Assembly (NCBI GenBank): GCA_010692425.1
Contig: JAAHHJ010000029.1
Location: 1 to 64,000 of the forward strand
Source of the DNA: Symploca sp. SIO3C6
Lineage (GTDB): Bacteria > Cyanobacteriota > Cyanobacteriia > Cyanobacteriales > Coleofasciculaceae
Direction: 5' to 3'
Length of the DNA stretch: 64,000 nt
Part shown: positions 36,527-58,804 of the stretch, in pieces
Numbering within the stretch: position 1 is the stretch's first letter
Layout of the letters: the number at the start of each line of letters is the position of its first letter
Position numbers and translations under genes: made by a program
The notes under the pieces: model-generated
What the model was told of the DNA's origin: nothing
Seen by the model: the letters and a program-made list of their open reading frames with translations, nothing else
Databases searched by the model: none

Positions 36527-36775
36527 TAAGAAGTAATGAGTATAAGTAATCATTTTTTTGTGGTCATTTATTACTTGTATTCATAACATTTGTAGGATTC
36601 TTCTTTCTGTTTGATCTAATTTTAGTTTGTACCAGCATTGATCTGAAAAACAAGTCTTATATTTTTGTAAAAAACATAAAATTCTATAAAGAAAATAAGA
36701 ATTTGTAGTTGAAGTTTAAAATAAGATTTGGGCTCATAGTAAATTGTTAAATCTTTGTATTTAGTGGAAACTCCT

Positions 36776-37312
36776 ATGCTATACCAAAGTAATGTTCAAG
36801 TGGCTATGCATCCCCGTACTTATGGAACACAAGAAACTATTACAGCTGAACACAGTTATAGTTGTCAGCGTGATCAGGAAAATAAGAGATATTTCCAAAG
36901 GAGAATCAGGAAGCAGCAACCAGCCGAGATAGCGGCCAAGATGCTAAAAACTATGGTTTTTCATGGACAAGGCATGCCTCCAAGGAGATTTTGTCGCCGT
37001 TGGTTTGGACTAGAAGCAATCAATGAATACGGACAACCCCTTCATCAGGAATCTTACATAGTCATGCTTGAATCTGAGCATGGCTATCGGGAGAAATGCA
37101 TCAACTTAATTGCCAGGATTCTGAAGATTAAACCTAATACTATTCACCGTTGGGGGAAAGGAGTTGAATTTGACAAAATTCCCCCAGATAAACGACAGCA
37201 ATACGAAATGTATCTTGGTTATGTTGATACTCTGAGGATGATTACCACAAGTTTAGCAGGATTAGAAGGAAGTTTATTAGAGGGGCTATTGCATCGTTTA
37301 GAAATTAGTTAA
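36776..37312 (+). CDS. Conserved hypothetical at the edge of the RiPP locus
   Basis: This 178-residue basic, soluble protein (from ATG 36776; an in-frame TTG at 36755 would add 7 residues) has Arg/Lys-rich helices and a segment INLIARILKIKPNTIHRWGKG that looks like a helix-turn-helix recognition pair. No named family is recognised. It is the first gene of the + strand run leading into the double-cNMP protein, 211 bp away, so it could be a regulator, but this is inference. Confidence 0.55.
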   Translation: MLYQSNVQVAMHPRTYGTQETITAEHSYSCQRDQENKRYFQRRIRKQQPAEIAAKMLKTMVFHGQGMPPRRFCRRWFGLEAINEYGQPLHQESYIVMLESEHGYREKCINLIARILKIKPNTIHRWGKGVEFDKIPPDKRQQYEMYLGYVDTLRMITTSLAGLEGSLLEGLLHRLEIS

Positions 37313-37523
37313 GTATGATTCTGTACTCTCAAATTTTGGAGTAAATAAATCTCTATCTATCTAATTGATGACTATTGCTTGCAAAAAAACTTTTCCATGC
37401 AATAATTCAAGTTCTACCTTTGAATAAAGTTAAACAAATACTGTATCTAATACACAAAAAACTTGAATTATTAGAAAGCTTGTTTGTACTATTCAAATTA
37501 CTTCTAAATGGAGAAATAGCTCG

Positions 37524-38630
37524 ATGAGCCATACGCTTTTACGGGAACTCACTAATAGCGACATCAACTGGCTCATGGCTGTAGGTCAAAAACAAGAAGT
37601 AAAGTCTGGTCAGACCTTAATTCAAACTGGTCAAATGATCAAAACCCTTTACCTTATTATTGACGGCAGCCTGACAGTTTCAGTGCCGCAAGCTAGTGAC
37701 AACGCACTCAACCGCGCTTTTGCCCTTCTAGAGGAAACATCTGTTCTAGAAAGGGAGATAACTAGCCTACAGAGCGGCGATATTGCTGGGGATGAGCTAC
37801 TGCTTGAACTCAGAGCTGCTTCGACAAATGTCAAAGTAAAGCAGCCTTCCCGAATACTAGCAATTCCCCAAGAGCAATTGAGTGCCAAGCTCAATCAAGA
37901 TGTAGGTTTTGCTGCACGGTTTTACCGAGCAATCGCTCTTTTGATTTCAGAGCGCTTGCTGAAGCTGATGCAACAACTGCGCTCAGCGCGGTTTAGTCCA
38001 AATCAGTATCAGTCGCGAGAAGTCCTGTTTGCTTTTGGGGAACTTAACGACAGCGACATTGATTGGATGATTACTAACGGGAGTTGTCGGAGAGTGAAAG
38101 CCGGTATTCCCCTACTTCAAGAAGGTTTACCTGCCGAAGCACTCTATATCCTCCTTGAGGGAGCCATGATTGTAACTATTGCTGAGAGGGAAACTAGCCC
38201 TCTTGACTATGCTTTTGCCGCTCTCGATAACAGCGAAACTCCAATCCCAGAGCGAGAGATTACTACTCTAAGAGCAGGGGAGTTTATTGGTGAAATGCCT
38301 TTTGGTGATAATAGTCTTGCTTCCACCAGTGTTCGTGCAGTAAGCGATTCCCTGCTATTGTCAATTCCTGGGCAATTGCTTAGGGCTAAGCTACAGCAGG
38401 ATGTGGGCTGGGCAGCGCGATTTGAACGGGTGGTAGCTACTCTGGCCGCTCAGAGATTTCGGAATACTATCAATCGACTGGGTTATGGAAGACGCTTTTA
38501 TAGCAGTGGTCATAGCTTGGAGCCATACCTCATTTATGAGGATGAACTTAACCTCGATAGCCTAGATAAGTTGAATTTAGCAGGCTCCAGATTCAAATGG
38601 ATGGTTAACCGACTACAAGCAGTTGGTTAA
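37524..38630 (+). CDS. Double cyclic-nucleotide-binding protein, bacteriocin-transport-associated type
   Basis: This 368-residue protein has two CRP-like cyclic-nucleotide-binding domains in tandem (about 5-150 and 165-320). Both carry the characteristic insertion LREITSLQSGD/REITTLRAGEFIGE. There is no DNA-binding domain. Proteins with this double layout form a cyanobacterial family (TIGR03896-like) that recurs beside NHLM peptide exporters. GGAG lies 11 nt before the ATG. It begins the tight run cNMP - MinD-like - CRP-NHLP fusion, so its role is probably regulation or assembly of the export system. Confidence 0.85.
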   Translation: MSHTLLRELTNSDINWLMAVGQKQEVKSGQTLIQTGQMIKTLYLIIDGSLTVSVPQASDNALNRAFALLEETSVLEREITSLQSGDIAGDELLLELRAASTNVKVKQPSRILAIPQEQLSAKLNQDVGFAARFYRAIALLISERLLKLMQQLRSARFSPNQYQSREVLFAFGELNDSDIDWMITNGSCRRVKAGIPLLQEGLPAEALYILLEGAMIVTIAERETSPLDYAFAALDNSETPIPEREITTLRAGEFIGEMPFGDNSLASTSVRAVSDSLLLSIPGQLLRAKLQQDVGWAARFERVVATLAAQRFRNTINRLGYGRRFYSSGHSLEPYLIYEDELNLDSLDKLNLAGSRFKWMVNRLQAVG

Positions 38631-38726
38631 GAATAATAGTTATTGAAAACATGGACATGATCATCCCACTGGGATAGCCATGGCAAAAATTTATCTGTAG
38701 TGTCGCAATCAATCAGGAGTAGTTCT

Positions 38727-39485
38727 ATGTCCAAAATTATTTCAATTCACTCCTATCGGGGTGGTACTGGGAAAACTAACTTAACGGCAAGTTTAGCAGC
38801 AACTGTAGCAAGCTTTGGTAATCGAGTTGGCATTGTTGATACTGATCTTCAAAGTCCAGGGATTCCAGTATTATTCGGGTTTGATGAAACTAATATTGGC
38901 TATTCTCTAAATGATTACCTCTGGAATCGCTGTCGGCTTGCCCAAGCTAATTATGATGTGACTTCAGTACTTAGAAAACCAGCACCAAGAAGCTTGATTT
39001 ATCTGATTCCAGCCAGCATGAAGCCAGCAGAAATTGGTCGAGTGCTGCGGGAAGGTTACGATGTGAGACTTTTAGAGAAGGGTTTCCAAGATTTAATTGA
39101 TGAGTTGAAATTAGATTACCTGTTTATTGATACTCACCCTGGTCTTAGTGAAGAAATCTTACTCTCAATTACCATCTCTGATGTACTGGTACTAGTCATG
39201 CGGCCTGACCAACAGGATTTCCAAGGAACGGCGGTGACGGTGAACTTGGCTCGCAAGTTAAAAGTACCGAAGATGTTGCTGCTTTTAAATAAGGTAATTA
39301 AGTCCTTAGATCTTAGGTATGTGGAACAACAATTCGAGAGAAATTACAGTTTGCCCATAACAGGAATTCTGCCCTTATCACCGGAAATGATAGAGCTAGG
39401 AAGCCGAGGAATTTTTTGTCTAAAATATCCCAAGCATCCCTTAACTAAAGTAGTGGAAAAAACTGCGTTTCAGGTAATTAGTTGA
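38727..39485 (+). CDS. MinD/ParA-family ATPase
   Basis: This 252-residue deviant Walker-A ATPase starts MSKIISIHSYRGGTGKTNLT. The usual KGGxGKT has Arg in place of the first Lys. FIDTHPGLSEEIL is the Walker B region. ATG 38727 has AGGAG 7 nt upstream, so it is preferred to GTG 38700. The stop is one nt before the start of the CRP-NHLP fusion, so the two are translationally linked. Related ATPases place protein complexes at membranes or on DNA; here it may position the peptide exporter, which is inference. Confidence 0.85.
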   Translation: MSKIISIHSYRGGTGKTNLTASLAATVASFGNRVGIVDTDLQSPGIPVLFGFDETNIGYSLNDYLWNRCRLAQANYDVTSVLRKPAPRSLIYLIPASMKPAEIGRVLREGYDVRLLEKGFQDLIDELKLDYLFIDTHPGLSEEILLSITISDVLVLVMRPDQQDFQGTAVTVNLARKLKVPKMLLLLNKVIKSLDLRYVEQQFERNYSLPITGILPLSPEMIELGSRGIFCLKYPKHPLTKVVEKTAFQVIS

Positions 39486-39486
39486 A

Positions 39487-40653
39487 ATGAAAGACTCAAT
39501 TTGCTTAATCAGAGACTTTCTCTTGTCAGGTTTAATCAGAGACTTTCTCTTATCAGATAGAGATTTGTTAGATCAAGAAATGGCAATGATTAATCTGGTG
39601 GATGGTCAAGTTCTTTTTGCTCAGGGAGATACAGGAAATGACCTTTATCTGATTGAAAGTGGTCAAATCCAGCTCAATACCTATAATCAAGCAGGTCAGG
39701 AAATTACTCTCAATACTATCTCAGCAGGGGAACTTTTTGGGGAAATGGCATTAGTTGATGATCAACTCCGTGTCGTTAGTGCCGTTTCTCTTGGCTCATC
39801 TCGCCTCCTACGCCTGAAGCGGAATACATGCTGGCAGCGGCTACATAATTCTCCTGAGTTAAGCCAATTGATGCTCCAACTTCTGAATCAACGGATCCGT
39901 CACTTGATTGAATATATCGAGAAACTCACGGAGTGGACACAACTACTTATTGATGGGCAATATAGTCAAGTTATCAGAACTATTGAAGAGATAGAGGTCG
40001 ATTCTCAAGGAAATCGGGCTTGGGAAGCAGCAGCTAAATTCTTCAAGCAGATCATACAGACTATGCAAAAACCTGAAGAAAATCAGCACCAAGAAGTAGA
40101 AAAGCTCAAGCTAGAGGTTGATCAAGAAAAGCTTCAGCAACAGGTAGAAGAGATTGTTAGTACTGAATATTTTGAATATCTAAATAAGTTAGCTTCAAAA
40201 TTACGTACTGTGGGCAATACGGACAACGTTAGAGAAAGTCGGGGTAAGGTCATACCCTTACGTAAGTCAGTAGCTCATCTCAACTCAAAGAACAATTGGA
40301 GCTTGAACTCAAAAATCAAACAAGCTCTTTCTCAGGGGTTGAAGAAAAGATCAGAAATTTTAAATAGTTTAATTATGAAAGCCTGGGAAAATGAAGAATT
40401 TAGGCAGAAATTAATCGCTAATCCCAGAGAAGTATATGCAGTCAAGTTTGGATGTGAGATTCCAGAAGGTTTAGCAATTGATGTAATTGAGGAAACTTTG
40501 GATCATGTCAAAATAGTTTTACCTAGAAACCCGGCTTTAGAGATTACAGAGCAAGAACTATCTGAAGAATCACTAGATGCAGTATCAGGAGGTTGCTGGC
40601 TGGGTATGACAGATACTATCAATAAATCAGGTGCATTTTTTAGAAAGCCATAA
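39487..40653 (+). CDS. CRP-like domain fused to an NHLP RiPP leader and core peptide
   Basis: This 388-residue protein has residues 1-145 as a cyclic-nucleotide-binding domain (GELFGEMALVDD at 81-92), 195-225 as a charged coiled coil, and 282-369 as an NHLP (nitrile hydratase-like leader) segment: LIMKAWENEEFRQKL, IANPREVYAVKFG, IPEGLAIDVIEETLDH, IVLP, ELSEESLDAVSGG. After the double glycine (368-369) a core of 19 residues, CWLGMTDTINKSGAFFRKP, ends the protein. It contains one Cys, one Trp, and Ser/Thr for dehydration. The frame is uninterrupted. I know of no other such fusion; it may be a tethered precursor or a regulator that mimics one. Confidence 0.85.
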   Translation: MKDSICLIRDFLLSGLIRDFLLSDRDLLDQEMAMINLVDGQVLFAQGDTGNDLYLIESGQIQLNTYNQAGQEITLNTISAGELFGEMALVDDQLRVVSAVSLGSSRLLRLKRNTCWQRLHNSPELSQLMLQLLNQRIRHLIEYIEKLTEWTQLLIDGQYSQVIRTIEEIEVDSQGNRAWEAAAKFFKQIIQTMQKPEENQHQEVEKLKLEVDQEKLQQQVEEIVSTEYFEYLNKLASKLRTVGNTDNVRESRGKVIPLRKSVAHLNSKNNWSLNSKIKQALSQGLKKRSEILNSLIMKAWENEEFRQKLIANPREVYAVKFGCEIPEGLAIDVIEETLDHVKIVLPRNPALEITEQELSEESLDAVSGGCWLGMTDTINKSGAFFRKP

Positions 40654-40790: not shown

Positions 40791-41780
40791 ATGATTTCTA
40801 GTAATTGCCTTTTGGCCCAACGCCAGTCTCAATTTCCATGGCAGCAACAAGAGAAAATGCGGCTTACCGAGTTTTTGATGAATCATGTCCCAGATGCAGT
40901 TTGCTGGGTACAGCCAGACAAGCAACTGGTTTACGTTAATGATGAAGCTTGTAGTTTGTTTGGGTATTCCCGAGAGGAATTACTTTTGATGACTATCGAT
41001 CAAATATACCCAGACTTTTCACCTGAAGTTTGGTCACAATACTGGACAACGATTACAAAGCAAGATTCGCTCCAGGTGGAATCTCTACATCAAACTAAAC
41101 AAGGTCGAATTTTGTCAGTAGAAATTATTATTAGTTATCTCAATTACGACGGTAAAGAATATGGTTGTATCTGGAGTCGTGATATTACTGCTCGCAAACA
41201 GTTAGAAATAGCTCTTAAGAAGGCTCATCAACTTCTAGAGTGCAGATTTGAAGAGCGCACAGCCCAATTAAAGGAAGTCAATGAGCAATTATGTCGCGAA
41301 ATTGCTGAGCGTCAGCGGGCAGAGGTTGAACTCAAAAAACAAGTAGCTCTCAGTCACAGGTGTGTTGTTGAGTTACAGCAAGTGTCAGAACCACTCTTGA
41401 CTGAAACAGAGAGCCCATCTGCTTCCCAGTCGTTGTTTCCTAACTGTCCTCAGCTAAGTGAAGTCTTCAATTTTATTGAAAGTAATTATCAACAACCAAT
41501 TGGTTTAGGTGACGTAGCTAAAGCAGTTGGTTATTCCCCAGCTTACTTAACTGACTTAGTCAGACGCCTGACTGGACAAACGGTGTACCGCTGGATTGCT
41601 GAGCGCCGAATGACCGCAGCTTGCTCTTTGCTTCAAGAAACTGATCAGACAATAGATCAGATTGCAAAATCAGTTGGCTATCGCTACGCAGTTTGTTTCT
41701 TTCGTCAGTTTCGCCAAAGTTTCGGCATGACTCCTCAAGTTTGGCGCAATGCACAGCGAGAGTCAGAAGCGATAGATTGA
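40791..41780 (+). CDS. PAS-domain AraC-family regulator
   Basis: This 329-residue protein has an N-terminal PAS domain (about 25-135; VPDAVCWVQPDKQLVYVNDE), a heptad-rich linker (135-190) and a C-terminal AraC double helix-turn-helix (about 225-325; YSPAYLTDLVRRLTGQTVYRW and VGYRYAVCFFRQFRQSFGMTP). The PAS domain may sense redox or a small ligand. It lies between the CRP-NHLP fusion and the precursor genes and is the best candidate local transcription regulator of the RiPP locus. Confidence 0.88.
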   Translation: MISSNCLLAQRQSQFPWQQQEKMRLTEFLMNHVPDAVCWVQPDKQLVYVNDEACSLFGYSREELLLMTIDQIYPDFSPEVWSQYWTTITKQDSLQVESLHQTKQGRILSVEIIISYLNYDGKEYGCIWSRDITARKQLEIALKKAHQLLECRFEERTAQLKEVNEQLCREIAERQRAEVELKKQVALSHRCVVELQQVSEPLLTETESPSASQSLFPNCPQLSEVFNFIESNYQQPIGLGDVAKAVGYSPAYLTDLVRRLTGQTVYRWIAERRMTAACSLLQETDQTIDQIAKSVGYRYAVCFFRQFRQSFGMTPQVWRNAQRESEAID

Positions 41781-44096: not shown

Positions 44097-44240
44097 GGAT
44101 AAGTCTGGGTCTAATCTTGATTACTAGAGTGCTGATTAAGTCATTTTAGTAAGAAAAGTAGATAGACTTGCCCTGATTAATCAACGCCAAATTAAGCTGA
44201 TGATTATAAGAAATTGGCTCTCTAAAAAGTTTACTTAGGC

Positions 44241-44420
44241 TTACATTACCTTTTTGTTGCCATTGTAGTAAGTGTAGTAATAGTAGGAACCATCACGTCT
44301 TCTAATCCTTTTAGTTACTCTTTTCCGAGAGGCAGACCACCATGAGCATTTACCACCGGCTACAGCTTCAAGAGCTTCATCAGTTAATTCGCCTTCATTT
44401 GTTTTCAGTTCATCAAGCAT
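44241..44420 (-). CDS. RiPP precursor peptide 1 (double-Gly leader, WW core)
   Basis: This small gene encodes 59 residues. The 23-residue leader MLDELKTNEGELTDEALEAV ends in AGG. The core of 36 residues begins KCSWWSASRKRVTKR, is strongly basic, and ends with a Tyr-rich segment SYYYYTYYNGNKKVM. The leader's ELTDEALEAVAGG matches leaders cleaved by C39 peptidases, and such a transporter is encoded 7 kb away. AAGGA lies about 10 nt before the ATG. One Cys, several Ser/Thr and paired Trp suit LanM cyclisation and halogenation by the neighbouring enzymes; that link is inference. Confidence 0.85.
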   Translation of the reverse strand: MLDELKTNEGELTDEALEAVAGGKCSWWSASRKRVTKRIRRRDGSYYYYTYYNGNKKVM

Positions 44421-44689
44421 TTGAATATTTCCTTAATGGGATTTCTTTGGTTTACATTTACTATCCTATTGCTGCTCATCCTCAAGGGTCAATTCTAATT
44501 CTTTCGGAAGATAATCAAAAAAAATATTATCCTCTTCTTACCATTAGTTTCCATTGGTTAGAGTTCGCCTACAGTGGTTTTTAGCTCGGTGGGCTATAGC
44601 CTAATTCTAATTTTTATCACCTTGGACTTGAGTCTAACTCTCTGTAGTCAACTCTTAGTAAGGGTTGAGACAATCATTTTAATCACAGC

Positions 44690-44738
44690 CCAAAAAATCA
44701 AACCCAACCCGGAAAGCATAGTGCTTTCTAGGTTGGGT
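44690..44738 (-). terminator. Rho-independent terminator after precursor 2
   Basis: On the - strand, ACCCAACCTAGAAAGCA pairs with TGCTTTCCGGGTTGGGT and is followed by TTGATTTTTT. The duplicated copy at 45442-45490 serves precursor 3. Confidence 0.7.
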
Positions 44739-44992
44739 GATCAGAGTTTGGGTTTAATCCTGATGACGAGAGTGCCAATTCAGTTACCTGAATAATTACA
44801 GGAGTTTAAACTAAGATTACAGCTAGTGTTGTGGACAAAATTCATTACCAAAAAACACTATACATAAATTGATTGTGGATTTAGTGTCAACTCCAGTAAT
44901 AATAAGAGATGTTAATCTATACACTCTTTGAGTAATCTCAAATCAGGATGCTGACGATTAATATAGCGACACCCTAAAAAGTTTACTTAGGC

Positions 44993-45172
44993 TTACATTA
45001 CCTTTTTGTTGCCATTGTAGTAAGTGTAGTAATAGTAGGAACCATCACGTCTTCTAATCCTTTTAGTTACTTTTTTCCGAGAGGCAGACCACCATGAGCA
45101 TTTACCACCGGCTACAGCTTCAAGAGCTTCATCAGTTAATTCGCCTTCATTTGTTTTCAGTTCATCAAGCAT
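44993..45172 (-). CDS. RiPP precursor peptide 2 (double-Gly leader, WW core)
   Basis: It is identical to precursor 1 except for one residue (Lys instead of Arg at core position 11, from a C/T change on the + strand), so the core begins KCSWWSASRKKVTKR. It lies within the second unit of the 752-bp tandem duplication. Leader, ribosome site and length (59 residues) are the same. The single change is a conservative basic swap, which suggests recent duplication rather than diversification. Confidence 0.85.
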   Translation of the reverse strand: MLDELKTNEGELTDEALEAVAGGKCSWWSASRKKVTKRIRRRDGSYYYYTYYNGNKKVM

Positions 45173-45441
45173 TTGAATATTTCCTTAATGGGATTTCTTT
45201 GGTTTACATTTACTATCCTATTGCTGCTCATCCTCAAGGGTCAATTCTAATTCTTTCGGAAGATAATCAAAAAAAATATTATCCTCTTCTTACCATTAGT
45301 TTCCATTGGTTAGAGTTCGCCTACAGTGGTTTTTAGCTCGGTGGGCTATAGCCTAATTCTAATTTTTATCACCTTGGACTTGAGTCTAACTCTCTGTAGT
45401 CAACTCTTAGTAAGGGTTGAGACAATCATTTTAATCACAGC

Positions 45442-45490
45442 CCAAAAAATCAAACCCAACCCGGAAAGCATAGTGCTTTCTAGGTTGGGT
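45442..45490 (-). terminator. Rho-independent terminator after precursor 3
   Basis: This is the duplicated copy of the terminator at 44690-44738, with the same stem and T-rich tail. It lies 255 bp past the precursor 3 stop. Confidence 0.65.
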
Positions 45491-45744
45491 GATCAGAGTT
45501 TGGGTTTAATCCTGATGACGAGAGTGCCAATTCAGTTACCTGAATAATTACAGGAGTTTAAACTAAGATTACAGCTAGTGTTGTGGACAAAATTCATTAC
45601 CAAAAAACACTATACATAAATTGATTGTGGATTTAGTGTCAACTCCAGTAATAATAAGAGATGTTAATCTATACACTCTTTGAGTAATCTCAAATCAGGA
45701 TTCTGACTATTAATAGACCAACACACTCATTGATTTAGTCAGAC

Positions 45745-45924
45745 TTACATTACCTTGTTGTTGGCATTGTAGCAAACGTAGCGACGGACGGAGCCATCGG
45801 GCTTTTTCTCATAGCGAACAATTTTTTTCTTGGAAGCAGACCACCATCTACATTTACCACCGGCTACAGCTTCAAGAGCTTCATCAGTTAATTCGCCTTC
45901 ATGTGTCTTAAGTTCTTCGAGCAT
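45745..45924 (-). CDS. RiPP precursor peptide 3 (diverged core)
   Basis: This 59-residue precursor has a leader almost identical to the others (MLEELKTHEGELTDEALEAV, then AGG), but the core is diverged: KCRWWSASKKKIVRYEKK, then PDGSVRRYVCYNANNKVM. The start (KC-WWSAS) and the end (NKVM) are kept, the Tyr run is lost, and a second Cys appears in YVCYN, which would allow two rings. AAGGAGATATTCAA precedes the ATG, a stronger ribosome site than for copies 1 and 2. It is divergent from lanM, with 274 bp between their starts. Confidence 0.85.
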   Translation of the reverse strand: MLEELKTHEGELTDEALEAVAGGKCRWWSASKKKIVRYEKKPDGSVRRYVCYNANNKVM

Positions 45925-49100: not shown

Positions 49101-49420
49101 AAATTGAAGTTGCTTTAAATACAACTGAGCAATTTGGTTTACAGAAATTGGATCATCTCTGTTGCGGTAATTTTGGTAGGATGGAGTTGCTACTGGTGGC
49201 TGGTTCCAAGCTATCGCGATCGCATTTATGGGAGACTGGTCGAAAACAAGCTGCACAGGTTGTGGGCAGAGTTAAACAAACAGGTGCTTTTTATCTATTT
49301 CCCGAGTTTAATGGAGATATTTATAACCCTGGTTTCTTTCAAGGTACTGCCGGAATTGGCTATGAATTGATCAGGCTGGCCTATCCAGAGGCACTTCCTT
49401 CCGTCTTAATGTGGGAGTAA
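46199..49420 (+). CDS. Class II lanthipeptide synthetase (LanM), ProcM-like zinc site
   Basis: This 1073-residue enzyme has an N-terminal DUF4135 dehydratase domain (to about 680; catalytic DCHQEN and DLETLLHP near 362-385) and a C-terminal LanC-type cyclase domain (about 720-1070). The cyclase zinc ligands read SWCHG (C943) and CCGN (C988, C989), so the usual CHG is CCG, as in the substrate-tolerant ProcM clade with three Cys ligands. It should dehydrate Ser/Thr and form lanthionines. Gene order: precursors divergent upstream, halogenase downstream. Confidence 0.93.
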   Translation: MEVSQQDLIKIVEQASTISERLGDRFIPNQAQNEKLISSRMELWSKVVAQGNPDQFNKRFVWDGINTNTVINVLGDVCLADEQQLPTWTEILREALSIDLNREDSDVYRCLDPEEPIPFEEVYLPFVEVGRKKFIAQVGVSGQLLSEIVHINLERQLLLKLDGLCTESLQFEFSLFKNFKQSPLNFLQERLQTNDGDQQYQSFVQDLKAGKLLSFFQKYSVLARLVGTAVDFWAEEKAEFLQRLASDLPMIEQTFQEDITQVVAIGLGLSDLHNRGRSVISLTFASGLKLIYKPRGLGLEVAYFQLLAWCNQQEILLPFKLLKVIDCKTHGWMEYVEHLPCQETIAAQRYYQRAGMLLCLLYILEATDCHQENIIASGEHPVLVDLETLLHPHSHEIDPNKEAGVQYLANQQFFDSVIATGLLPKWEVGADGGIAEDISGLGGVDEQIPVEILTWKNINTDNMVLGAESLSMPPQTNALLLNGITLSPHDYANEIIDGCQQMYQFLSERREVLLAADSPIANLSNQKVRFLFRPTEVYALVLSKIMQPKFLRHGVEYSIELDVLSRSFLSTDTKPSLWSLLKMELQALEQMDIPYFKADSSSEALRLNPDVMIEGCFYESSYDLVISHLQQLNDADLAKQISMIRACLYSLNPRQMISVAPVEDNTNNLDLDTQAPLTSAQLVEEAVEIAQQLQKLAIHATDGSVTWIGMGYHPQAMRLQLQPLGHSLYDGICGVALFLAALSKITGEQEFRNLALSALQHLTKVLHDQDLNFRFRITKQIGIGGGIGVGSIIYTLVKVSQFLDQPELLDTAVIAASLITKESIADDHQFDTMSGSAGAILGLLTLYDANQNPVILEQALECGYHLLDHRSLSKSGFRAWETLEEQLATGISHGAAGIAYALARLYKTTQEKVFLEAAEEAIAYERSVFSPTTGNWSDMTSWCHGAPGIGLARLGTLEVIDTTEIRQEIEVALNTTEQFGLQKLDHLCCGNFGRMELLLVAGSKLSRSHLWETGRKQAAQVVGRVKQTGAFYLFPEFNGDIYNPGFFQGTAGIGYELIRLAYPEALPSVLMWE

Positions 49421-50172: not shown

Positions 50173-51513
50173 ATGAAAATTGCAGTAATTGGTGGTGGAA
50201 CAGCAGGTCATATGGCTGCTGCCCATATCTCCAAACACTTTCCTCAATTTGAGCTATATCACATTTATGATTCTAAAATACCCTCGATTGGAGTGGGAGA
50301 AGGAACACTACCCGGTTTTCCTGTATGGCTGACTGAGATTACTGGTCTAGATTACCCTGATTTGAAAGAGCTATGTCAGATTACAATTAAGTACGGTAAC
50401 TGTTTTGAAAATTGGGGTAATAAACACCAGCAATTTATGCATCATTTTTATCCGATTGGTGATACTTATGCCTATCACATTTCCGCAGATCAAATAGTTA
50501 AAATACTTCAAGATTATATTTCAGCTACCCATATTGACAAGAAAGTTATTGACTTAAAAAGTGATGGCATCACAGTAGATATTGCCTTTGAAGATAACAC
50601 TTCTTTGCAAGCTGATCTTGCTATTGATGCCCGAGGTTTTCCCAAATCCTTAAATGATAACCATCTCAAGCTGTCTTTGATTCCTACAAATGCAGCCTTA
50701 ATACGTCAGTGTCCAGGGTATGATAAAAGACTTGTAAATGTGAAGATGGGCGAACAGTTATTCCAATATGAATCGGCGACTAGGGCTGTTGCTAGACCTC
50801 ATGGTTGGATTTTTGTAATCCCACTTACCCACCGAACTTCTTATGGTTACATTTACAATAGTTCCATCAACTCAGCAGAAGAAATTGCTACTGACTTTGA
50901 TGAATTTCTTAGCTTGGAAGGTGTTGAGTTTACTGGCAAACAGAAAAAACTAAACTTTCCTAACTTTACTCAGCAGACATTGTTTGACGGAGCCATTTTT
51001 AAACTAGGGAATGCTGCTTCTTTCCTAGAACCTTTAGAAGCAACTGCTATTGCCGTGACTCTACAACAAATGTACTCCTTCTCACACTGGCCTCTTGGAT
51101 ATCTATCTCAGCAGAAGCAAAGAGGAAAGCTAAAAGAATCTAATGTTCAAGTCTTAAACAGATATTTGTTAAAAAATATCTATAAGTTATCTCTGTTTGT
51201 AGGTTGGCATTATGCGATGGGTTCTGCCTTTGATACGGAGTTTTGGCGATTTGCCAAATCTAATTTTCAGCAAGGAATTCAAAAACTAGAAGATCAAGAG
51301 ATTATAGCTGAATTCGATGATTATCTCCAAACAGGGTTCGATTTTGACGATCCGATCAACCAACATGAAATTTTTGTCAATAAGACAACTCAATTTCAGG
51401 CAATAGACGATGAAACGAACCTAGCAGAAAGTAACATAAAAACTTTTTCGCAATTTCCACCACAAAGTTTTGCAGAGGTGGGATATGGAATGGGATATTT
51501 TCCTGAAATTTAG
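50173..51513 (+). CDS. Flavin-dependent halogenase, tryptophan type
   Basis: This 446-residue enzyme of the tryptophan halogenase family has FAD motif GGGTAG (7-12), GVGEGTLPGF (40-49), the catalytic Lys K73 in ITIKYGNCFENW, and the Trp-halogenase substrate Glu in FLEPLEATAIA (284-294). The signature WxWxIP reads WIFVIP (212-217), with Phe for the second Trp. It would use FADH2 and halide (chloride or bromide) to halogenate an indole. With Trp-Trp cores nearby, a peptide substrate is plausible. No flavin reductase is adjacent. Confidence 0.88.
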   Translation: MKIAVIGGGTAGHMAAAHISKHFPQFELYHIYDSKIPSIGVGEGTLPGFPVWLTEITGLDYPDLKELCQITIKYGNCFENWGNKHQQFMHHFYPIGDTYAYHISADQIVKILQDYISATHIDKKVIDLKSDGITVDIAFEDNTSLQADLAIDARGFPKSLNDNHLKLSLIPTNAALIRQCPGYDKRLVNVKMGEQLFQYESATRAVARPHGWIFVIPLTHRTSYGYIYNSSINSAEEIATDFDEFLSLEGVEFTGKQKKLNFPNFTQQTLFDGAIFKLGNAASFLEPLEATAIAVTLQQMYSFSHWPLGYLSQQKQRGKLKESNVQVLNRYLLKNIYKLSLFVGWHYAMGSAFDTEFWRFAKSNFQQGIQKLEDQEIIAEFDDYLQTGFDFDDPINQHEIFVNKTTQFQAIDDETNLAESNIKTFSQFPPQSFAEVGYGMGYFPEI

Positions 51514-51546: not shown

Positions 51547-53835
51547 ATGTTGACATCAACTATAGAGGTTAATTCTAAAGCAAATCGCCGCGTTCGCACC
51601 CCCACTTTACTACAGATGGAGGCAGTGGAATGTGGTGCTGCTGCCCTAGGAATTATCCTCGGCTACTACGGACTCCTCTTACCCCTTCCTACACTGCGAC
51701 AGGAATGCGGTGTCTCACGGGATGGTAGCAAAGCTTCTAACATAGTAAAAGCTGCTCGGAATTATGGTTTAACTGCCAAAGGATTCAAAAAATCCATCGA
51801 AAACCTCAAAGCCCTTGACCCACCCTACATCGTCTTTTGGGAGTTCAATCACTTTCTAGTTGTAGAAGGATTTGTTAACAACCGGGTATATCTAAACGAT
51901 CCCGATAGCGGTCCGAGAACAGTTTCTCTCAAAGAGTTTGATGACGGTTACACTGGGGTTGTCCTGGTTATGGAACCAGGACCAAAGTTTAAGAAAGGCG
52001 GCAAAACCAGGAACATTTTTTCTGCCTTAGGTTCCCGTTTGCAACACTCCCGCCGCGCCGTCCTTTTTTGCCTCCTTTCAGGGCTAATCCTTACCATTCC
52101 TCGCCTAGCAATACCAGCATTTAGCCAAGTCTTTGTTGATCAAATTCTCGTTCAAGGTTATCAAGATTGGCTACGTCCTTTACTATTAGGAATGATTATT
52201 GCCGCCTTACTTCAGGGACTTCTTGCTCGAATGCAATTAAGATCCCTGCGACAACTGCTCATTAAACTCTCAATCACTATGTCAGGGCAGTTTCTCTGGC
52301 ACATCCTGCGCTTACCCTTGGGGTTTTACGCTCAGCGCTTCTCCGGAGAAATTAGCGAGCGCACCCAACTTAATGACAAAGTAGCAGAAGTACTCTCAGG
52401 GCGTCTTGCCACTACCATCATCGACACGGTGATGATCGGATTTTATGCCCTACTCATGTTCACTTATGACTGGCTACTAACCAGCCTTACGATCTCATTT
52501 GCTGCCTTAAATTTTGTTGCCCTCCGTTCCTTATCCCGCAGTCGAGTTGATGCCAATATGAGCCTAGCTCAAGAATACGGTAAGGTGTCTGGTGTCGCCA
52601 TCGGTGGTATCCAATCAATTGAAACTGTCAAAGCTTCCGGACTAGAGTCTGATCTATTTGCCAAATTTGCTGGCTACTATACCAAAGCTCTCAACGCTCA
52701 ACAACAATTAAACCTGCAAACCCAAATTCTAACAGTATTACCAACCCTGTTAACGGCCCTAGCCACAGGCTCTATCTTAGTTGTCGGCGGCTTCCGGGTA
52801 ATTAATGGTCATCTTAGTATTGGTATGCTGGTAGCATATCAAACTCTCGCCACTAGCTTTCTAGAACCAGTCAACAGTCTGCTTAACTTTGGCAGTACTT
52901 TACAAGAACTAGAAGCTGATCTTAACCGCCTTGATGACGTGCTACAGAATCCTATTGATGAGGAAGTTACTTGTCAGGGTAGAGGGAGAAGGGGAGAAGA
53001 GGAGAAGGGGAGAGGGGGAGAAAACTCTACTCAGTGTCGCGAAAATCAGCAACAAAATAGAAAAATTAACTCTACTGTTCCAACTTCTGATCTTATTACT
53101 CCAGAGACATTTCAATTACAGGGCTACATTGAGTTACGTAATCTTACTTTTGGTTACAGTAGTTTAGAAAAACCTCTGATCGAAAATTTCAATCTAACTG
53201 TAAAACCAGGGCAACGAATAGCCTTAGTTGGTGGTAGTGGCTCTGGTAAATCCACCATCGCTAAACTTATTTGCGGACTCTACCAACCCTGGGAAGGAGA
53301 AATTCTGTTTGATGGCATCAAGCGTACTCAGATACCCCGTGCTATCCTTGCTAACTCTCTAGCTATGGTGGAACAAGATATCTTTCTCTTTGCTGGCAGC
53401 ATTCGCCAAAATCTCACCCTCTGGGATTCAACTGTACCAGAAGCTGATTTAGTGCGAGCTTGCCAAGATGCAGCAATTCATGAAGCGGTTCTCTTTTTAC
53501 CAGGAGGATATGATGCCCAACTTAGTGAAGGAGGGATGAATCTCAGTGGTGGGCAACGCCAACGCCTAGAAATAAGCCGCGCCCTAGTTAAACATCCCGC
53601 CATCTTAGTCTTGGACGAAGCCACCAGCGCCCTAGATGCCGAAACTGAACTAATCATCGACCATAATCTGCGACGGCGCGGTTGTTCTTGTATAGTCGTT
53701 GCCCATCGCCTCAGCACAATTAGAGATTGTGACGAAATTATTGTCCTAGAAAGAGGCAAAGTTGTACAGCGTGGCACTCATGAAGAATTACGAAAACAAG
53801 GAGGAACCTACATGCGTTTGATCAGCAACCAATAA
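51547..53835 (+). CDS. NHLM-type ABC transporter with C39 peptidase (ABC1)
   Basis: This 762-residue protein has an N-terminal C39 peptidase domain (C29, H102, D118), six transmembrane helices (about 170-440) and an ABC ATPase (Walker A GGSGSGKST, signature LSGGQRQR, Walker B VLDEATSALD). It cleaves double-Gly leaders and exports the core. The TMD-NBD linker contains a GRGRRGEEEKGRGGE tract (about 478-505) derived in frame from the dispersed GGGAGA DNA repeat. The start lies 33 nt after the halogenase stop. Confidence 0.93.
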   Translation: MLTSTIEVNSKANRRVRTPTLLQMEAVECGAAALGIILGYYGLLLPLPTLRQECGVSRDGSKASNIVKAARNYGLTAKGFKKSIENLKALDPPYIVFWEFNHFLVVEGFVNNRVYLNDPDSGPRTVSLKEFDDGYTGVVLVMEPGPKFKKGGKTRNIFSALGSRLQHSRRAVLFCLLSGLILTIPRLAIPAFSQVFVDQILVQGYQDWLRPLLLGMIIAALLQGLLARMQLRSLRQLLIKLSITMSGQFLWHILRLPLGFYAQRFSGEISERTQLNDKVAEVLSGRLATTIIDTVMIGFYALLMFTYDWLLTSLTISFAALNFVALRSLSRSRVDANMSLAQEYGKVSGVAIGGIQSIETVKASGLESDLFAKFAGYYTKALNAQQQLNLQTQILTVLPTLLTALATGSILVVGGFRVINGHLSIGMLVAYQTLATSFLEPVNSLLNFGSTLQELEADLNRLDDVLQNPIDEEVTCQGRGRRGEEEKGRGGENSTQCRENQQQNRKINSTVPTSDLITPETFQLQGYIELRNLTFGYSSLEKPLIENFNLTVKPGQRIALVGGSGSGKSTIAKLICGLYQPWEGEILFDGIKRTQIPRAILANSLAMVEQDIFLFAGSIRQNLTLWDSTVPEADLVRACQDAAIHEAVLFLPGGYDAQLSEGGMNLSGGQRQRLEISRALVKHPAILVLDEATSALDAETELIIDHNLRRRGCSCIVVAHRLSTIRDCDEIIVLERGKVVQRGTHEELRKQGGTYMRLISNQ
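52976..53030. repeat. GGGAGA repeat inserted in frame in a transporter gene
   Basis: GGGTAGAGGGAGAAGGGGAG and following purine-rich DNA is the same class of repeat as in the array at 1-393. It encodes a charged low-complexity tract in the ABC transporter linker without breaking the frame. Confidence 0.75.
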
Positions 53836-53881: not shown

Positions 53882-56788
53882 ATGCTCAAGCCAGAACTAA
53901 CTATAGAACCTTACCACATCCAAGGAAATCAACCCTTGCTGCTGGATAATCCCCAGAATATCTGGGTAGTCGTCTCTGGATTTATATCTGTATTTGCCAC
54001 AAAAATTAATCAGAAACAGCCAGAAGGAAATCGCCGTTATCTATTTAGTGTTAGACCTGGTGAAGCTCTATTTGGTATATCTTTATCCTCTAATTTAGGT
54101 ATCTTAGCAGTAGCCCTAGAAAACACAGAACTACGCCAATTTTCCCTACAGGAGTTAGCAGCCCAAGTAGCTAAGAATCAACCTAACGCCATCATGCTGT
54201 TAGAAGGTTGGTTGCAGCATTTGGGTGAAGCCTTACCTGCTACATCTTTAAATAATCAGGCAACTGTAGCGACAGCTTTAGAATTAAGCTACTTTTCCTT
54301 AGAAAAGAATCAAATTCTCAAGCCTTCTCCTACCCAAATTGCCTGGGTGCAGGTGCGCAATGGTAATATTTGTTGGCTAGGGGTAAAAGACCTAAGTTTA
54401 GATAAGTCTTCCCCTCTGTTTCCCCTTGCTAAGGGCATGTGGTTACAAGCAGAGAATTCAACAGAACTCTATAACATCACCACCAAAGAGTGGGATAATC
54501 CTGAACAACTAACAGCTAGTTTAGCAATATTGCACAGATATTTCTGCTGCTACTTGGAATTAGTTGTACAACAGGAGAAAGAAGCACAATTTCGTAGGTT
54601 TCAAGCCAGGGAAAAGTTAAACCGTCAACTAGCAGAGTCAGCCCTGGGTAAATTAGCATCAGTATTGCAACCTCAAGAGGCTCGATTCTTTCAAGAAGGG
54701 ACACCACTGCTAATAGCAGCAGGGGCAGTGGCAAGAGTTAATAAAATTACCATCAAGCCACCAGCGCCAGACTTTGAGCAGCAACCCCTTAAAGATCCTT
54801 TAGAGGCAATTACCCAGACATCTCAATTCCGCACCCGTCGGGTAGCACTCTCAGATGACTGGTGGCGAAGGGAACAAGGGCCTCTACTAGCCTATATGCG
54901 AGAAGATAACTCTCCAGTGGCTTTGCTACCAAATCCAGACAAAGGCAGTAAATATATTTTATTTGACCCAGTAAACAGAAGCCGTACTCCAATCAATAAA
55001 GCAGTAGCTAAAACAATCTGCCCAGAAGCCTACGTATTTTATCGACCATTGCCGCCGTTGGTAAACAACGTTTTGGAACTATTCCTATTTGGGATTAATG
55101 GATACCAAAAGGATATCATCCTGATTGTACTGATTGGAATGATTGCCACGTTTTTGGGAATGTTCACGCCCCAAGCAACCGGGATGCTCGTCGATAAAGC
55201 AATTCCTGATAGTGATCACCTGTTGCTCTGGCAAATGGGACTAGCTCTATTGGCTGCTGCTTTTGGCCAATCAGCCTTTCAGTTGTCCCAAGGCATTATT
55301 ACTCTCCGGGTAGAAAATGTCGCTGATGGCAAATTGCAACTGGCAGTTTGGGACAGACTACTAAAATTAACTCCAGCCTTCTTTCGTCAGTATACTTCTG
55401 GTGATCTAGTAAATCGCCTCTTGGCAATCAACGAAATTCGCAGCCAACTCAGTGGTGCCACCCAACGCACTCTCCTCAGCGCTATCTTTTCCCTACTTAA
55501 TCTGGGACTAATGTTTGTTTATAACGTCAAACTAGCCCTAGTGGGACTGGGTATAACTCTACTGACAGCAATTGTTACATTTTCCTCTGGCGTTCTCCTA
55601 GTGCGTAAAGAACGTCAGCAGGAACAACTAGATGGAGAAATATCTGGTCTGAGTGTACAACTAATTAATGGTGTTGCCAAGCTGCGAGTTGCCGCAGCTG
55701 AAGAAAGAGCATTTGCTGCCTGGGCTCAAAAATATAGCCAGCGCATGAGGCTCGAAGCTGGCATCCAAAGAATTAATGACAGCCTGTCTACCTTTAACGA
55801 GGCACTACCTTTAATTAGTTCTGTGCTGCTATTTTGGTTTGCTGTATTGTTTATGCAAATAGCCCAAGCCAAGGGAAATCCCACTGGCCTCAGTGCAGGT
55901 ACATTTCTCGCCTTTAATGCCGCCTTTGGCACCTTTATCAGCGGTGTTACTGACCTAAGTAATACTCTAACTGACATTATTGGGATTGTACCTCTATGGG
56001 AGAGGGTCAAATCCATTCTCCAAGCTAAGCAGGAATTGGAACCCAACCAGACAGATTCTGGGCGTTTAAGTGGTCATGTTGTTTTAGATCACGTTATCTT
56101 CCGCTATCGGGAGGATGGGCCACTAATCCTTGATGATGTTAGCCTTAATGCTAAACCAGGAGAATTTGTCGCAATTGTCGGGCCTTCAGGCAGTGGTAAA
56201 TCAACTCTGTTTCGCCTGTTGCTGGGCTTTGAGACTCCTAGTAGTGGTACAGTCTATTATGATGGGCAAGATTTAGCTGGCTTAGATGTTACTTCCGTAC
56301 GACGACAGTTGGGAGTAGTGCTGCAAAATGGTCGAGTACAACAAAGCTCTATTTTTGACAATATTACTGGTGGTGCATTAGTAGGTCTTGATCAGGCTTG
56401 GGAAGCAGCGCGCATGGCAGGTTTAGCTGAAGACATCGAGCAAATGCCGATGGGAATGCACACCGTAATTAGTGGAGGAGGAAGTAATCTTTCTGGAGGA
56501 CAAAGGCAGAGGTTATTAATTGCCCGTTCCCTTGTTAATAAACCGAAAATTATCTTGATGGATGAGGCAACCAGTGCTCTCGACAACCGCACTCAAGCAA
56601 TTGTCACTGAGAGTTTAGAAAAGTTGAATACCACCCGCATTGTAATTGCTCATCGCCTTAGTACCATCCGTAATGCCGACCGTATTTATGTTATGGAAAG
56701 TGGGCGTTTAGTGCAAGTAGGCTCCTTTGAAAAACTGGTAAAACAAGAAGGATTATTTGCTCGACTTGCTGCTCGACAGTTGGAGTAA
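53882..56788 (+). CDS. NHLM-type ABC transporter ATPase/permease (ABC2)
   Basis: This 968-residue protein has an extended N-terminus of about 400 residues with a cNMP-like beta fold in its first 110 and no C39 domain, then six transmembrane helices (about 405-700) and an ABC ATPase (Walker A GPSGSGKST, NLSGGQRQR, LMDEATSALD). This long architecture is typical of the second NHLM transporter subunit. It should pair with the C39-containing subunit. The start lies 46 nt after ABC1. Confidence 0.92.
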   Translation: MLKPELTIEPYHIQGNQPLLLDNPQNIWVVVSGFISVFATKINQKQPEGNRRYLFSVRPGEALFGISLSSNLGILAVALENTELRQFSLQELAAQVAKNQPNAIMLLEGWLQHLGEALPATSLNNQATVATALELSYFSLEKNQILKPSPTQIAWVQVRNGNICWLGVKDLSLDKSSPLFPLAKGMWLQAENSTELYNITTKEWDNPEQLTASLAILHRYFCCYLELVVQQEKEAQFRRFQAREKLNRQLAESALGKLASVLQPQEARFFQEGTPLLIAAGAVARVNKITIKPPAPDFEQQPLKDPLEAITQTSQFRTRRVALSDDWWRREQGPLLAYMREDNSPVALLPNPDKGSKYILFDPVNRSRTPINKAVAKTICPEAYVFYRPLPPLVNNVLELFLFGINGYQKDIILIVLIGMIATFLGMFTPQATGMLVDKAIPDSDHLLLWQMGLALLAAAFGQSAFQLSQGIITLRVENVADGKLQLAVWDRLLKLTPAFFRQYTSGDLVNRLLAINEIRSQLSGATQRTLLSAIFSLLNLGLMFVYNVKLALVGLGITLLTAIVTFSSGVLLVRKERQQEQLDGEISGLSVQLINGVAKLRVAAAEERAFAAWAQKYSQRMRLEAGIQRINDSLSTFNEALPLISSVLLFWFAVLFMQIAQAKGNPTGLSAGTFLAFNAAFGTFISGVTDLSNTLTDIIGIVPLWERVKSILQAKQELEPNQTDSGRLSGHVVLDHVIFRYREDGPLILDDVSLNAKPGEFVAIVGPSGSGKSTLFRLLLGFETPSSGTVYYDGQDLAGLDVTSVRRQLGVVLQNGRVQQSSIFDNITGGALVGLDQAWEAARMAGLAEDIEQMPMGMHTVISGGGSNLSGGQRQRLLIARSLVNKPKIILMDEATSALDNRTQAIVTESLEKLNTTRIVIAHRLSTIRNADRIYVMESGRLVQVGSFEKLVKQEGLFARLAARQLE

Positions 56789-56871: not shown

Positions 56872-56937
56872 CTCATTACTTATTACTTATTACTTATTAC
56901 TTATTACTTATTACTTATTACTTATTACTTATTACTT
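56872..56937. repeat. Heptad tandem repeat TTACTTA
   Basis: Nine or so head-to-tail copies of the ATTACTT unit belong to the heptad family seen at 4984, 18172 and 41818. It sits between the second transporter and the HlyD-type adaptor. Confidence 0.9.
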
Positions 56938-56948
56938 AAAACCAGACC

Positions 56949-57140
56949 TCAGTCTTTCCTAAGTAAATCAGGTAGCCATAACAGGATTAGCACCAGCAAA
57001 CAAACTATTAATAAGCCTACAGAATAACTGACATTGCTACTTGCATTCGGTGTACTTTGCAACAAAACCTGAAAGTTAATCCAGTTGTTACCAATCAAGT
57101 CTTGAAGTGAGCTTATAATGCCAATAAAAACTATATCCAT
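56949..57140 (-). CDS. Possible small single-pass membrane peptide
   Basis: A 63-residue frame on the opposite strand contains one strong hydrophobic helix (SVGLLIVCLLVLILLWLPDLL). No family is recognised. It lies between ABC2 and HlyD. It could be an immunity or accessory peptide but has no clear ribosome site, so it is weak. Confidence 0.35.
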   Translation of the reverse strand: MDIVFIGIISSLQDLIGNNWINFQVLLQSTPNASSNVSYSVGLLIVCLLVLILLWLPDLLRKD

Positions 57141-57355
57141 AGATTTAATCTTGAGTGCATTTCAAATTGACAAAATTTTTGGGAGAAAAAACATCTTATT
57201 CACTGAAATTATAGCAAGTGCACCAAATTCCCGCACTACACATTTACAATAATACTTTGTTTCTAGTTTATTTCTTATTTATTACGTAAATCAATTAACT
57301 ATAATAACTAATTTTTTAGTTAATTGTGTAAATATTAGGGGTATTGTTTAGCACC

Positions 57356-58804
57356 ATGGAAGTCAACGAAAAAAAGAACATTTTCAGAGAAAACTCACTA
57401 GAGCGGTTATCTTCGCCAGAACGACTTGATCAGCTCCTACAAGTAGTTAGTCGCCGAGACTGGTTGCCTCTAGGTAGTTTAGGGGCATTGATAGTAGTAG
57501 CGATTATTTGGAGTATCTTTGGTCGAATTCCAGTAAATTTTACAAGCAAAGGAGTGCTAATTCGTCCCCACCGAGTTGTCAATGTAGACTCCCCTATTTC
57601 AGCACAGTTAAAGGAACTTAAGGTAAAAATTGGAGATTGCATCAAGAAAAACGAGGTGTTGGCAACAATTGATCCCTCTGATCTCAAGCAAAAACTCAAT
57701 CTAGAGCGTGCTAAACTTCTAGAGTTACAGTTGCAAGAACGTGAAGCGAACTCACTCCAGGTTCAGCGCACTAACCTTGAAAGGAAAACAATCCAGCAGC
57801 AGCGAGACAGTCTACAGAAACGCCTGCTCGATTCTCAAGCTCTGACTCCAGTCCTAAGAAATAAAGGCATAGTAGCAATTCAGCAGCAGCGAACCAGTTT
57901 ACAACAACAACTCCGAGATGCTAAAAATCTAACTAGTATCCTTGAACAGAGAGTCCAGAAGCGCCGTTTTCTATTAAGGGAAGGAGCACTGTCAGAGGAT
58001 ATGGTTCTTCAGGCAGAACAAGAATATCGACAGAGACTACAGAGCATTTCTGTACTTGAAGCCCAGTTAAAGCAACTTGATGTTACCGAAAGTGAAACTG
58101 AGCGAAGATATCTAGAGAACCTCAGCGGTATCTCCCAGTTAGAAGCACAGTTGCAGGAATTAGAGACAAAGGACAAGAGACTCGAACAAGAAAATCTGCA
58201 AGCTTCCAGCAATCGGAAAAATCAAATTGAGGAAGTCAAGCGTAATATTGCTCAGTTTGAAAAGCAATATGATGATAACCGACAGATTAAAAGTCCCCAC
58301 GCTGGATGTATCCTTGAACTTACTGCTAGTTCAGGTTCTGTTCTTAACCAAGGAACTCGCTTGGGTTCGATCCAAGTTGGTGATACTTCTAGTCAGATGG
58401 TAGGGGTTGCCTATTTTCCTGTGGGTGTTGGCAAGAAGATTAAGCCCGGTATGAAGCTCCAAATTACCCCTGACATGGTACATCGTGAAAGGTTCGGTGG
58501 AATTGTTGGTACTGTTACTTCTGTTTCAACTTTCCCAGTTACCAAACAGGGAGCTACTAGTTTGGTGGGTAATGCCGAAGTTGTCGAAGGTTTAATGCCC
58601 CAGGGAAAAGCAATGATTGAAGTGCGTGGTCAATTGCAACTTGATTCTTCTACCCCTAGTGGCTATGAGTGGTCCTCTTCCCAAGGACCATCTAACCTGA
58701 AAATATCTACTGGAACTACTGCTACTACCCGCGTAACTGTAGAAGAGCAAGCACCGATTACTTTTGTCTTGCCCATTCTTCGGGAGTGGAGTGGCTTATT
58801 TTAG
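57356..58804 (+). CDS. HlyD-family membrane fusion protein, NHLM export
   Basis: This 482-residue adaptor has one N-terminal membrane helix (about 39-56), a split biotinyl-lipoyl-like domain (VNVDSPISAQLKELKVKIGD and IKSPHAGCILELTASSGSV), a long coiled coil (about 105-300) and a beta-barrel near the C-terminus. It matches NHLM bacteriocin secretion adaptors. The ATG at 57356 is preferred to the in-frame TTG at 57344. It completes the three-part exporter. Confidence 0.9.
   Translation: MEVNEKKNIFRENSLERLSSPERLDQLLQVVSRRDWLPLGSLGALIVVAIIWSIFGRIPVNFTSKGVLIRPHRVVNVDSPISAQLKELKVKIGDCIKKNEVLATIDPSDLKQKLNLERAKLLELQLQEREANSLQVQRTNLERKTIQQQRDSLQKRLLDSQALTPVLRNKGIVAIQQQRTSLQQQLRDAKNLTSILEQRVQKRRFLLREGALSEDMVLQAEQEYRQRLQSISVLEAQLKQLDVTESETERRYLENLSGISQLEAQLQELETKDKRLEQENLQASSNRKNQIEEVKRNIAQFEKQYDDNRQIKSPHAGCILELTASSGSVLNQGTRLGSIQVGDTSSQMVGVAYFPVGVGKKIKPGMKLQITPDMVHRERFGGIVGTVTSVSTFPVTKQGATSLVGNAEVVEGLMPQGKAMIEVRGQLQLDSSTPSGYEWSSSQGPSNLKISTGTTATTRVTVEEQAPITFVLPILREWSGLF

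Follow-up and report, generated by a model that had tools for sequence, protein, structure and literature searches.

A candidate halogenated lanthipeptide locus in Symploca

The window analyzed here, the first 64,000 bases (1-64000) of the 79,765-base contig JAAHHJ010000029.1 of Symploca sp. SIO3C6 (genome 7.49 Mb), contains a gene cluster that likely encodes a class II lanthipeptide pathway in which a halogenase of the SrpI/MppI kind would act on peptidyl tryptophan. Using NCBIfam and Pfam profile scans and motif checks, the cluster genes were placed at 37524-58804. In order these encode a double-cNMP protein, a ParA-like ATPase, a cNMP-NHLP protein, a PAS-AraC regulator, an S8 peptidase-like protein and three 59-aa precursors (all four on the minus strand), a LanM, a tryptophan halogenase and three proteins matching TIGR03796, TIGR03797 and TIGR03794. 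An earlier note on this DNA had placed a halogenated lanthipeptide locus at 36755-58804. The open reading frame (ORF) at 36755-37312 had no family match in NCBIfam or Pfam and nothing tied it to the cluster, so the start was moved to 37524 while the rest of the span was retained. Genome wide, LANC_like had one match, the window LanM, and this kind of halogenase is rare, being present in 4/386 phylum genomes (E<=1e-20) and 9/388 order genomes (E<=1e-40) with the window's own genome counted in both; the co-location is therefore more than chance. The halogenase was also present in 3/20 family genomes (the phylum, family and order draws overlap), and no match at the level used for the family genomes was found in G400, a second species of the window's genus.

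The LanM (46199..49420, plus strand) matched TIGR03897 with 974 bits (cut-off 304) and was full-length, with a DUF4135 dehydratase and a zinc-binding LanC-like cyclase. Its cyclase motifs WCHG and LCCG supply three Cys ligands (CCG type), a ligand set that we take to be ProcM-type, in keeping with the ProcM-like LanM of the earlier note. In a tree of 12 LanMs (16 loci were chosen and L127, L128, L122 and L124 were dropped as they gave no sequence by the motif filter) the window LanM was among eight CCG-motif rows that formed one group (99/99), its nearest sister not being resolved.

The halogenase (50173..51513, plus strand) matched PF04820 with 169 bits (cut-off 21) and retained GxGxxG and the catalytic Lys and Glu (K73 and E289) in alignment, K73 having the residue number of the MppI lysine. 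In W-x-[WF]-x-I-P the second W was F in all four aligned halogenases, including the MppI-like one; both GxGxxG and W-x-[WF]-x-I-P are motifs of flavin-dependent halogenases. The predicted structure (mean predicted local distance difference test score, pLDDT, 68.5) matched tryptophan halogenases, among them PrnA, RebH, BrvH and MibH. The protein shared 56% identity with its MppI-like counterpart in G360, a genome of the same family as the window genome, and this identity together with a genomic link to Trp-containing double-glycine precursors places it in the SrpI/MppI kind, SrpI itself not being in the alignment.

The halogenase was followed after 33 bp by ABC1 (51547..53835, plus strand; TIGR03796, 1150 bits, cut-off 853), which carries an N-terminal C39 double-glycine peptidase (Peptidase_C39), and after a further 46 bp by the ABC2 permease/ATPase (53882..56788, plus strand; TIGR03797, 992 bits, cut-off 709), a spacing that is operon-like. 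The stretches ECGAA, FNHF and NDPDSG were present in the C39 domain and contain the Cys, His and Asp that we take to be catalytic. A HlyD-type secretion protein (57344..58804, plus strand; TIGR03794, 374 bits, cut-off 156) completed the NHLM export trio. The tryptophan-type halogenase and the C39/NHLM trio of the earlier note were thereby both borne out.

Three short precursors with conserved leaders and divergent cores

Upstream of the LanM, three 59-aa precursor ORFs were found on the minus strand at 44241..44420, 44993..45172 and 45745..45924, each with AAGGA upstream. All three read M-L-[D/E]-E-L-K-T-[N/H]-EGELTDEALEAVAGG and continue into a basic core of 36 residues that starts KC[S/R]WWSAS, which agrees with the three WW-containing precursors proposed before. 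Precursor 1 consists of a 23-aa leader and the core KCSWWSASRKRVTKRIRRRDGSYYYYTYYNGNKKVM, precursor 2 differs from it by one residue, and precursor 3 has the core KCRWWSASKKKIVRYEKKPDGSVRRYVCYNANNKVM; the core charge was +8.7 to +9.7 in the two that were computed. The copies were spaced exactly 752 bases apart. Copies 1 and 2 were inside a 728-bp tandem duplication (window 44222-45701) whose single mismatch causes an R/K exchange in the core, and the third copy, at the same spacing, was 75% identical. Comparing precursor 1 to precursor 3, nonsynonymous codons numbered 2/23 in the leader and 18/36 in the core, with the KCxWWSAS head kept except for x. A conserved leader with a divergent core is the usual pattern between precursor paralogues and speaks for the pathway proposed below. 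The three peptides contain a leader, a GG site and core Cys and Ser/Thr residues as looked for in a LanM substrate, and LXXXXL was found four residues before the GG in both precursor types of the window. Precursor 1 did not match the Nif11 or NHLP models TIGR03798, PF07862 and TIGR03793; a 23-residue leader of this sort is unusual and a new detail. The plus-strand ORFs of 80 and 73 aa overlapping the precursors were dismissed as mechanical because the opposite strand has both a ribosome-site-like sequence and leader conservation.

The halogenase is associated with Trp-rich precursor cores

Precursors were found in 8 of the 9 loci with this halogenase and all 8 had a Trp-containing core. With a criterion of at least two Trp per core, which was picked after the first cores were seen, the first set gave 4/4 halogenase loci as compared to 0/12 control loci (Fisher 5.5e-4) and the enlarged set 7/8 as compared to 0/12 (Fisher 1.0e-4), the first-test cores and the enlarged-test counts being entered by hand. 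The controls came from 41 LanM/NHLP stretches, of which 28 had no core by the strict leader pattern and 13 had cores, two of these in one locus, leaving 12 loci. The G431 and G484 precursors, both in one genus, were found only by a looser pattern. Two loci were left out of the test: G547, where no precursor was found and the contig ends beside the cluster, and G141, where the halogenase was distant (33%) and there was no core. The pattern failed to pick up a second precursor in G392 (L109:668-1024, core WRGFSRRYWIGF, with two Trp), which leaves the locus count unchanged. The locus that failed the two-Trp criterion was G499, with a single C-terminal Trp in 3/5 cores and none in 2/5. This association is the best evidence that the halogenase substrate is Trp in such double-glycine cores. 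The full NHLM trio was present in 7 of the 9 loci (window by hidden Markov model, others by tblastn); of the exceptions, G360 had no C39 transporter in the fetched stretch and the contig of G392 spans 6.7 kb. A LanM carrying zinc motifs was found in 2 of the 9, the window and G360.

Proposed pathway

The scheme that we infer from these genes, its chemistry, order of steps, choice of Trp and halide included, would start with binding of the 59-aa precursors through the LXXXXL segment of the 23-residue leader. The LanM would dehydrate Ser/Thr and close a lanthionine ring, most simply between core residues Cys2 and Ser6, so that the Trp-Trp pair is enclosed. With the leader still attached, the halogenase would brominate or chlorinate one ring Trp using reduced flavin from a reductase elsewhere in the cell; by analogy with MppI alone, bromide would be favored somewhat over chloride. 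The C39 domain of ABC1 would then cleave after the GG, and ABC1, ABC2 and HlyD would export the product. The halogenated lanthipeptide product claimed by the earlier note is supported by the MppI-kind halogenase, the Cys/Ser spacing, the leader motif and the link to Trp-rich cores. That all parts make one product is our inference, because two distinct precursor types are present.

Several observations weigh against this pathway. Precursor 1 of the 59-aa set matched no family in NCBIfam or Pfam at E<=0.001, and outside the window only 8/386 phylum genomes matched the 59-aa precursors (E<=0.01; range 1.6e-4 to 0.009), with a double-glycine peptide at only 2 of those 8 places and none by eye at the other six. 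One of the two was an MppE-like peptide of G360 (E 0.004) and the other, which had the best E (1.6e-4), was a Nif11-looking peptide of 102 aa from G362 (core GCGAWSIKSVGTYQCQGNPQDG); we take both to be matches to common leader tails rather than members of one precursor family. The precursors and the LanM are on opposite strands, the LanM to halogenase gap is 752 bp, and no flavin reductase was found among the 11 scanned proteins of 36755-58804 (NCBIfam, Pfam). With a criterion of at least one Trp, the first set gave 4/4 as compared to 5/12 (p 0.069, not significant); the enlarged set gave 8/8 as compared to 5/12 (p 0.010), a weaker contrast. Six of the 9 halogenase loci yielded no LanM within the stretches fetched (6.7 to 47 kb). 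The LanM tree did not show the window LanM as sister to MppM, and the halogenase tree grouped MppI with G431/G484 (96/100), loci where no LanM was found, with the window not resolved; the partnership with LanM may therefore have arisen more than once. Finally, MppI was reported to be only modestly affected by loss of LXXXXL and was harmed by a shortened MppE leader (PMC11791876), so it is not certain that a 23-residue leader would work. SrpI, on the other hand, is described as needing about 18 leader residues (PMC12518702), a need that a 23-residue leader could satisfy.

A second precursor joined to a cNMP protein

The second precursor type is part of a 388-aa protein (39487..40653, plus strand) in which a cNMP sensor (cNMP_binding match) and a coiled coil are in frame with an NHLP precursor. 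The NHLP leader matched TIGR03793 with 83.6 bits (cut-off 50.9) and ended in GG at 368-369, followed by the core CWLGMTDTINKSGAFFRKP (CWLGMTDT...), consistent with the CRP-linked precursor of the earlier note. The NHLP part (40303..40653, plus strand) was 52% identical to a stand-alone NHLP precursor, L109:42-377, that lies beside the G392 halogenase, and the N-terminal part was 29-31% identical to the three best cNMP-coil proteins. Two genes have thus joined in this frame, and the fused precursor is a probable second substrate of the pathway.

The join may be one of reading frame only, with translation of the NHLP peptide beginning at an internal start and the cNMP protein being an unrelated neighbor, an account that is compatible with the pathway above and to which we give slightly less than an even chance. 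The first residue of L109:42-377 aligned exactly with window codon 273, the TTG at 40303, which could be the internal start, and in the predicted structure of the 388-aa protein (mean pLDDT 62.9, predicted template modeling score 0.40) pLDDT fell below 50 at 243-274, immediately ahead of the NHLP part, and also across much of the NHLP part. Among the 44 NHLP matches listed, from 19/386 genomes, the window's was the only one in a frame longer than 257 aa (391 aa), the others not having been checked for other fusions; this search scored up to 14 candidates per genome and the cNMP-NHLP search up to four. However, the frame is open across the linker without a stop, and the GGAG upstream of the TTG is one base away, a poor ribosome-site spacing. 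A bolder idea, which we consider rather improbable, is that the 388-aa protein is itself a precursor of a ribosomally synthesized and post-translationally modified peptide. A second-messenger sensor paired with the ParA-like ATPase would then carry a halogenated lanthipeptide as its C-terminal tail, nucleotide binding would control modification or export, and the three neighboring peptides would be natural minimal-leader substrates common to the LanM and the halogenase.

The two precursor types could also divide the work, with the halogenase acting only on the fused NHLP core CWLGMTDT..., the three 59-aa peptides being LanM substrates that are never halogenated, and two products leaving by one exporter. 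The 52% identity to the precursor beside the G392 halogenase would fit such a division, as would the reported activity of SrpI on an NHLP-family leader (PMC10858898, PMC11791876) and a LanM that follows an NHLP precursor with core GCWIAGSRGCGFVTRT in G129, a genome where no match to this halogenase was found. We nevertheless consider it unlikely, as the terminal segment of the 59-aa leaders (EGELTDEALEAVAGG, or HEGEL...) is nearly the same as that of the G392 NHLP leader (EGELSDEALEAVAGG), the 59-aa cores have two Trp as compared to one in the NHLP core, and the MppE-type Nif11 precursor shows that halogenases of this kind are not restricted to NHLP leaders. That the enzyme produces free halotryptophan or modifies an unrelated metabolite, its adjacency to the exporter being accidental, is very improbable, since although many of its PDB sequence and fold matches are to what we take to be free-tryptophan halogenases, MppI, the nearest characterized enzyme, is reported to be inactive on a core without leader, the whole NHLM trio accompanies the halogenase in 7/9 loci and Trp was present in a core in all 8 loci with a precursor.

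Other genes of the window

The double-cNMP "bacteriocin-type transport-associated" protein (37524..38630, plus strand) matched TIGR03896 with 283 bits (cut-off 161), confirming the double-cNMP regulator named in the earlier note; homologues with 41-42% identity were near the exporter in G019 and G656. The ParA/MinD-like ATPase (38700..39485, plus strand; family scans) ends 1 bp before the cNMP-NHLP gene and is matched by homologues of 54-55% identity at the halogenase loci of G019, G656 and G499. ParA/MinD-like ATPases adjoined or were near sensor-domain proteins (cNMP, or FHA and GAF) at window 38700-40653, at L006 7623-9577 and in L111 and L112, where a MinD/ParA-type protein was within about 1 kb of a cNMP-coil protein (27 and 32 bits, below the curated cut-offs). 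In several cyanobacteria this arrangement looks like a signaling pair. The PAS and AraC-type protein (40791..41780, plus strand; NCBIfam and Pfam scans) is a possible cluster regulator, judging from its position alone. The S8 peptidase-like protein (42071-43672, minus strand) lies between the regulators and the precursors and has a C-terminal end that by eye is PEP-CTERM-like. Scans for promoters and terminators gave no more than the shuffled level (10 as compared to 8.6 expected and 2 as compared to 1.5 expected) and were given no weight. Outside the cluster, a repetitive ORF at window 42-422 consisted of repeated MGRRGDGETRRRGE...MIFMNLLPPASCLLPFLG units.

Relatives of the halogenase and their loci

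The other halogenase loci differed in their partners. At G392 (L109 42-6656), NHLP precursors with cores GWALADRRRWVAWG and WRGFSRRYWIGF precede a pair of PoyD-type radical SAM epimerases, a protein resembling peptide arginases (318 bits, cut-off 350) and the halogenase, making this a candidate for an epimerized, ornithine-containing, halogenated proteusin. At G431 (L185 9184-14417) and G484 (L187 7597-12502), cores such as GWARRSWRRASRGTW adjoined the halogenase and peptide-arginase-like proteins, the latter below the cut-off; the precursor leaders end EAAAGG and matched no NCBIfam family, and one G431 neighbor joined arginase-like and 2-oxoglutarate-oxygenase-like parts. PoyD-like and arginase-like neighbors were seen at G547 by eye only. 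In Anabaena sp. 4-3 (L006 12678-14298), the halogenase and an FAD-binding oxidoreductase have as neighbors four Nif11-looking precursors whose cores contain two to three Trp each, and the 47 kb fetched yielded no LanM.

At G499 (L189 12944-19105) there were three Trp-ending NHLP cores without Cys. The LanM beside this halogenase was over the cut-off (674 bits), its match ended at profile position 780/932 and no WCHG or LCCG was found, so this locus possibly encodes dehydration with no ring closure, together with a halogenase for a C-terminal Trp. In G129 (L148 8445-12144) the NHLP precursor was directly before the LanM and the genome lacked any match to this halogenase, leaving a Cys-Trp head with no partner for halogenation. 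A scan of viral contigs for the halogenase, with 80 loci kept at <=34% identity, was not used. One halogenase kind thus occurs combined with LanM, PoyD epimerases, arginase-like proteins and Nif11 peptides, with a Trp core nearby in all 8 loci where a precursor was found.

Comparison with known systems

The window locus adds a candidate to the short list of halogenated lanthipeptides. Natural 23-residue leaders would suit joint use of a LanM and a peptide halogenase, and the masses of the products are predictable. In kind the pathway is not new, as a close relative was described in 2025; the short leaders and the cNMP-NHLP fusion are the new details. We found no prior description of the window locus among open-licence PMC papers, a search that did not extend to Figure S1 of PMC11791876. 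That paper reports four clusters in which an SrpI-like halogenase lies close to a LanM, SrpI being the query by which MppI was found, and the window locus may be one of the four.

The earlier note had cited microbisporicin/NAI-107 as the precedent for Trp halogenation. Its enzyme MibH is likewise the tryptophan halogenase of a lanthipeptide, but MibH scored only 66.7 bits to the window halogenase in the PDB sequence search and is reported to act after leader removal (PMC11791876); MppI/MppM of Moorena is the better precedent. The cyanobacterial group IV (LanM) bacteriocin clusters resemble the window in combining a LanM with a C39 ABC transporter, a second ABC transporter and HlyD, and NHLP is reported beside a LanM in Nostoc sp. 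PCC 7120 as well (PMC3140520, PMC2887384). The word halogenase is absent from the main text of both papers. The SrpE/SrpI proteusin brominase shares the NHLP leader with the fused precursor of the window, and also the LXXXXL motif, which in the structure of SrpE-type peptides is four residues before the GG; mutating both Leu nearly abolished SrpI activity on SrpE (PMC10858898). Unlike the enzyme proposed here, SrpI acts on the C-terminal Trp of linear peptides, and the passages of PMC10858898 considered here describe no LanM step.

The mpp system of Moorena producens is the closest. MppE is a Nif11-like peptide with 77 leader and 7 core residues (ACWRWSG), in which MppM is reported to form a Cys79-Ser83 lanthionine and MppI to brominate Trp80, with no chlorination seen in that report; MppI needs the leader, prefers the ring, is inactive on the leaderless core and loses activity when Lys73 is changed to Ala (PMC11791876). 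G360 encodes an 84-aa peptide ending ACWRWSG, a LanM and a halogenase with K73, the exact MppE core and numbering, and from the identical core, leader length and residue numbering we take its locus to be the Moorena mpp locus or a twin of it. The mpp system alone has a 77-aa Nif11-like leader, two arginases, a prenyltransferase, a terpene synthase, an oxygenase and a separate peptidase. In the window, by contrast, the leader is 23 aa, the exporter is of the C39 NHLM type, a further NHLP precursor is fused to a cNMP protein, and the three cores are basic and 36 aa long. No arginase, prenyltransferase or Nif11 precursor was found among the 11 scanned proteins of 36755-58804 or in the 59-aa precursor, setting the window apart from an mpp-type locus proper. 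The two systems have in common a LanM with an SrpI-like halogenase, K73, the LXXXXL leader motif and Trp within a Cys(i)-Ser(i+4) spacing, as can be seen by comparing the window core K-C-x-W-W-S to MppE A-C-W-R-W-S-G, in which Cys and Ser are spaced the same way around Trp.

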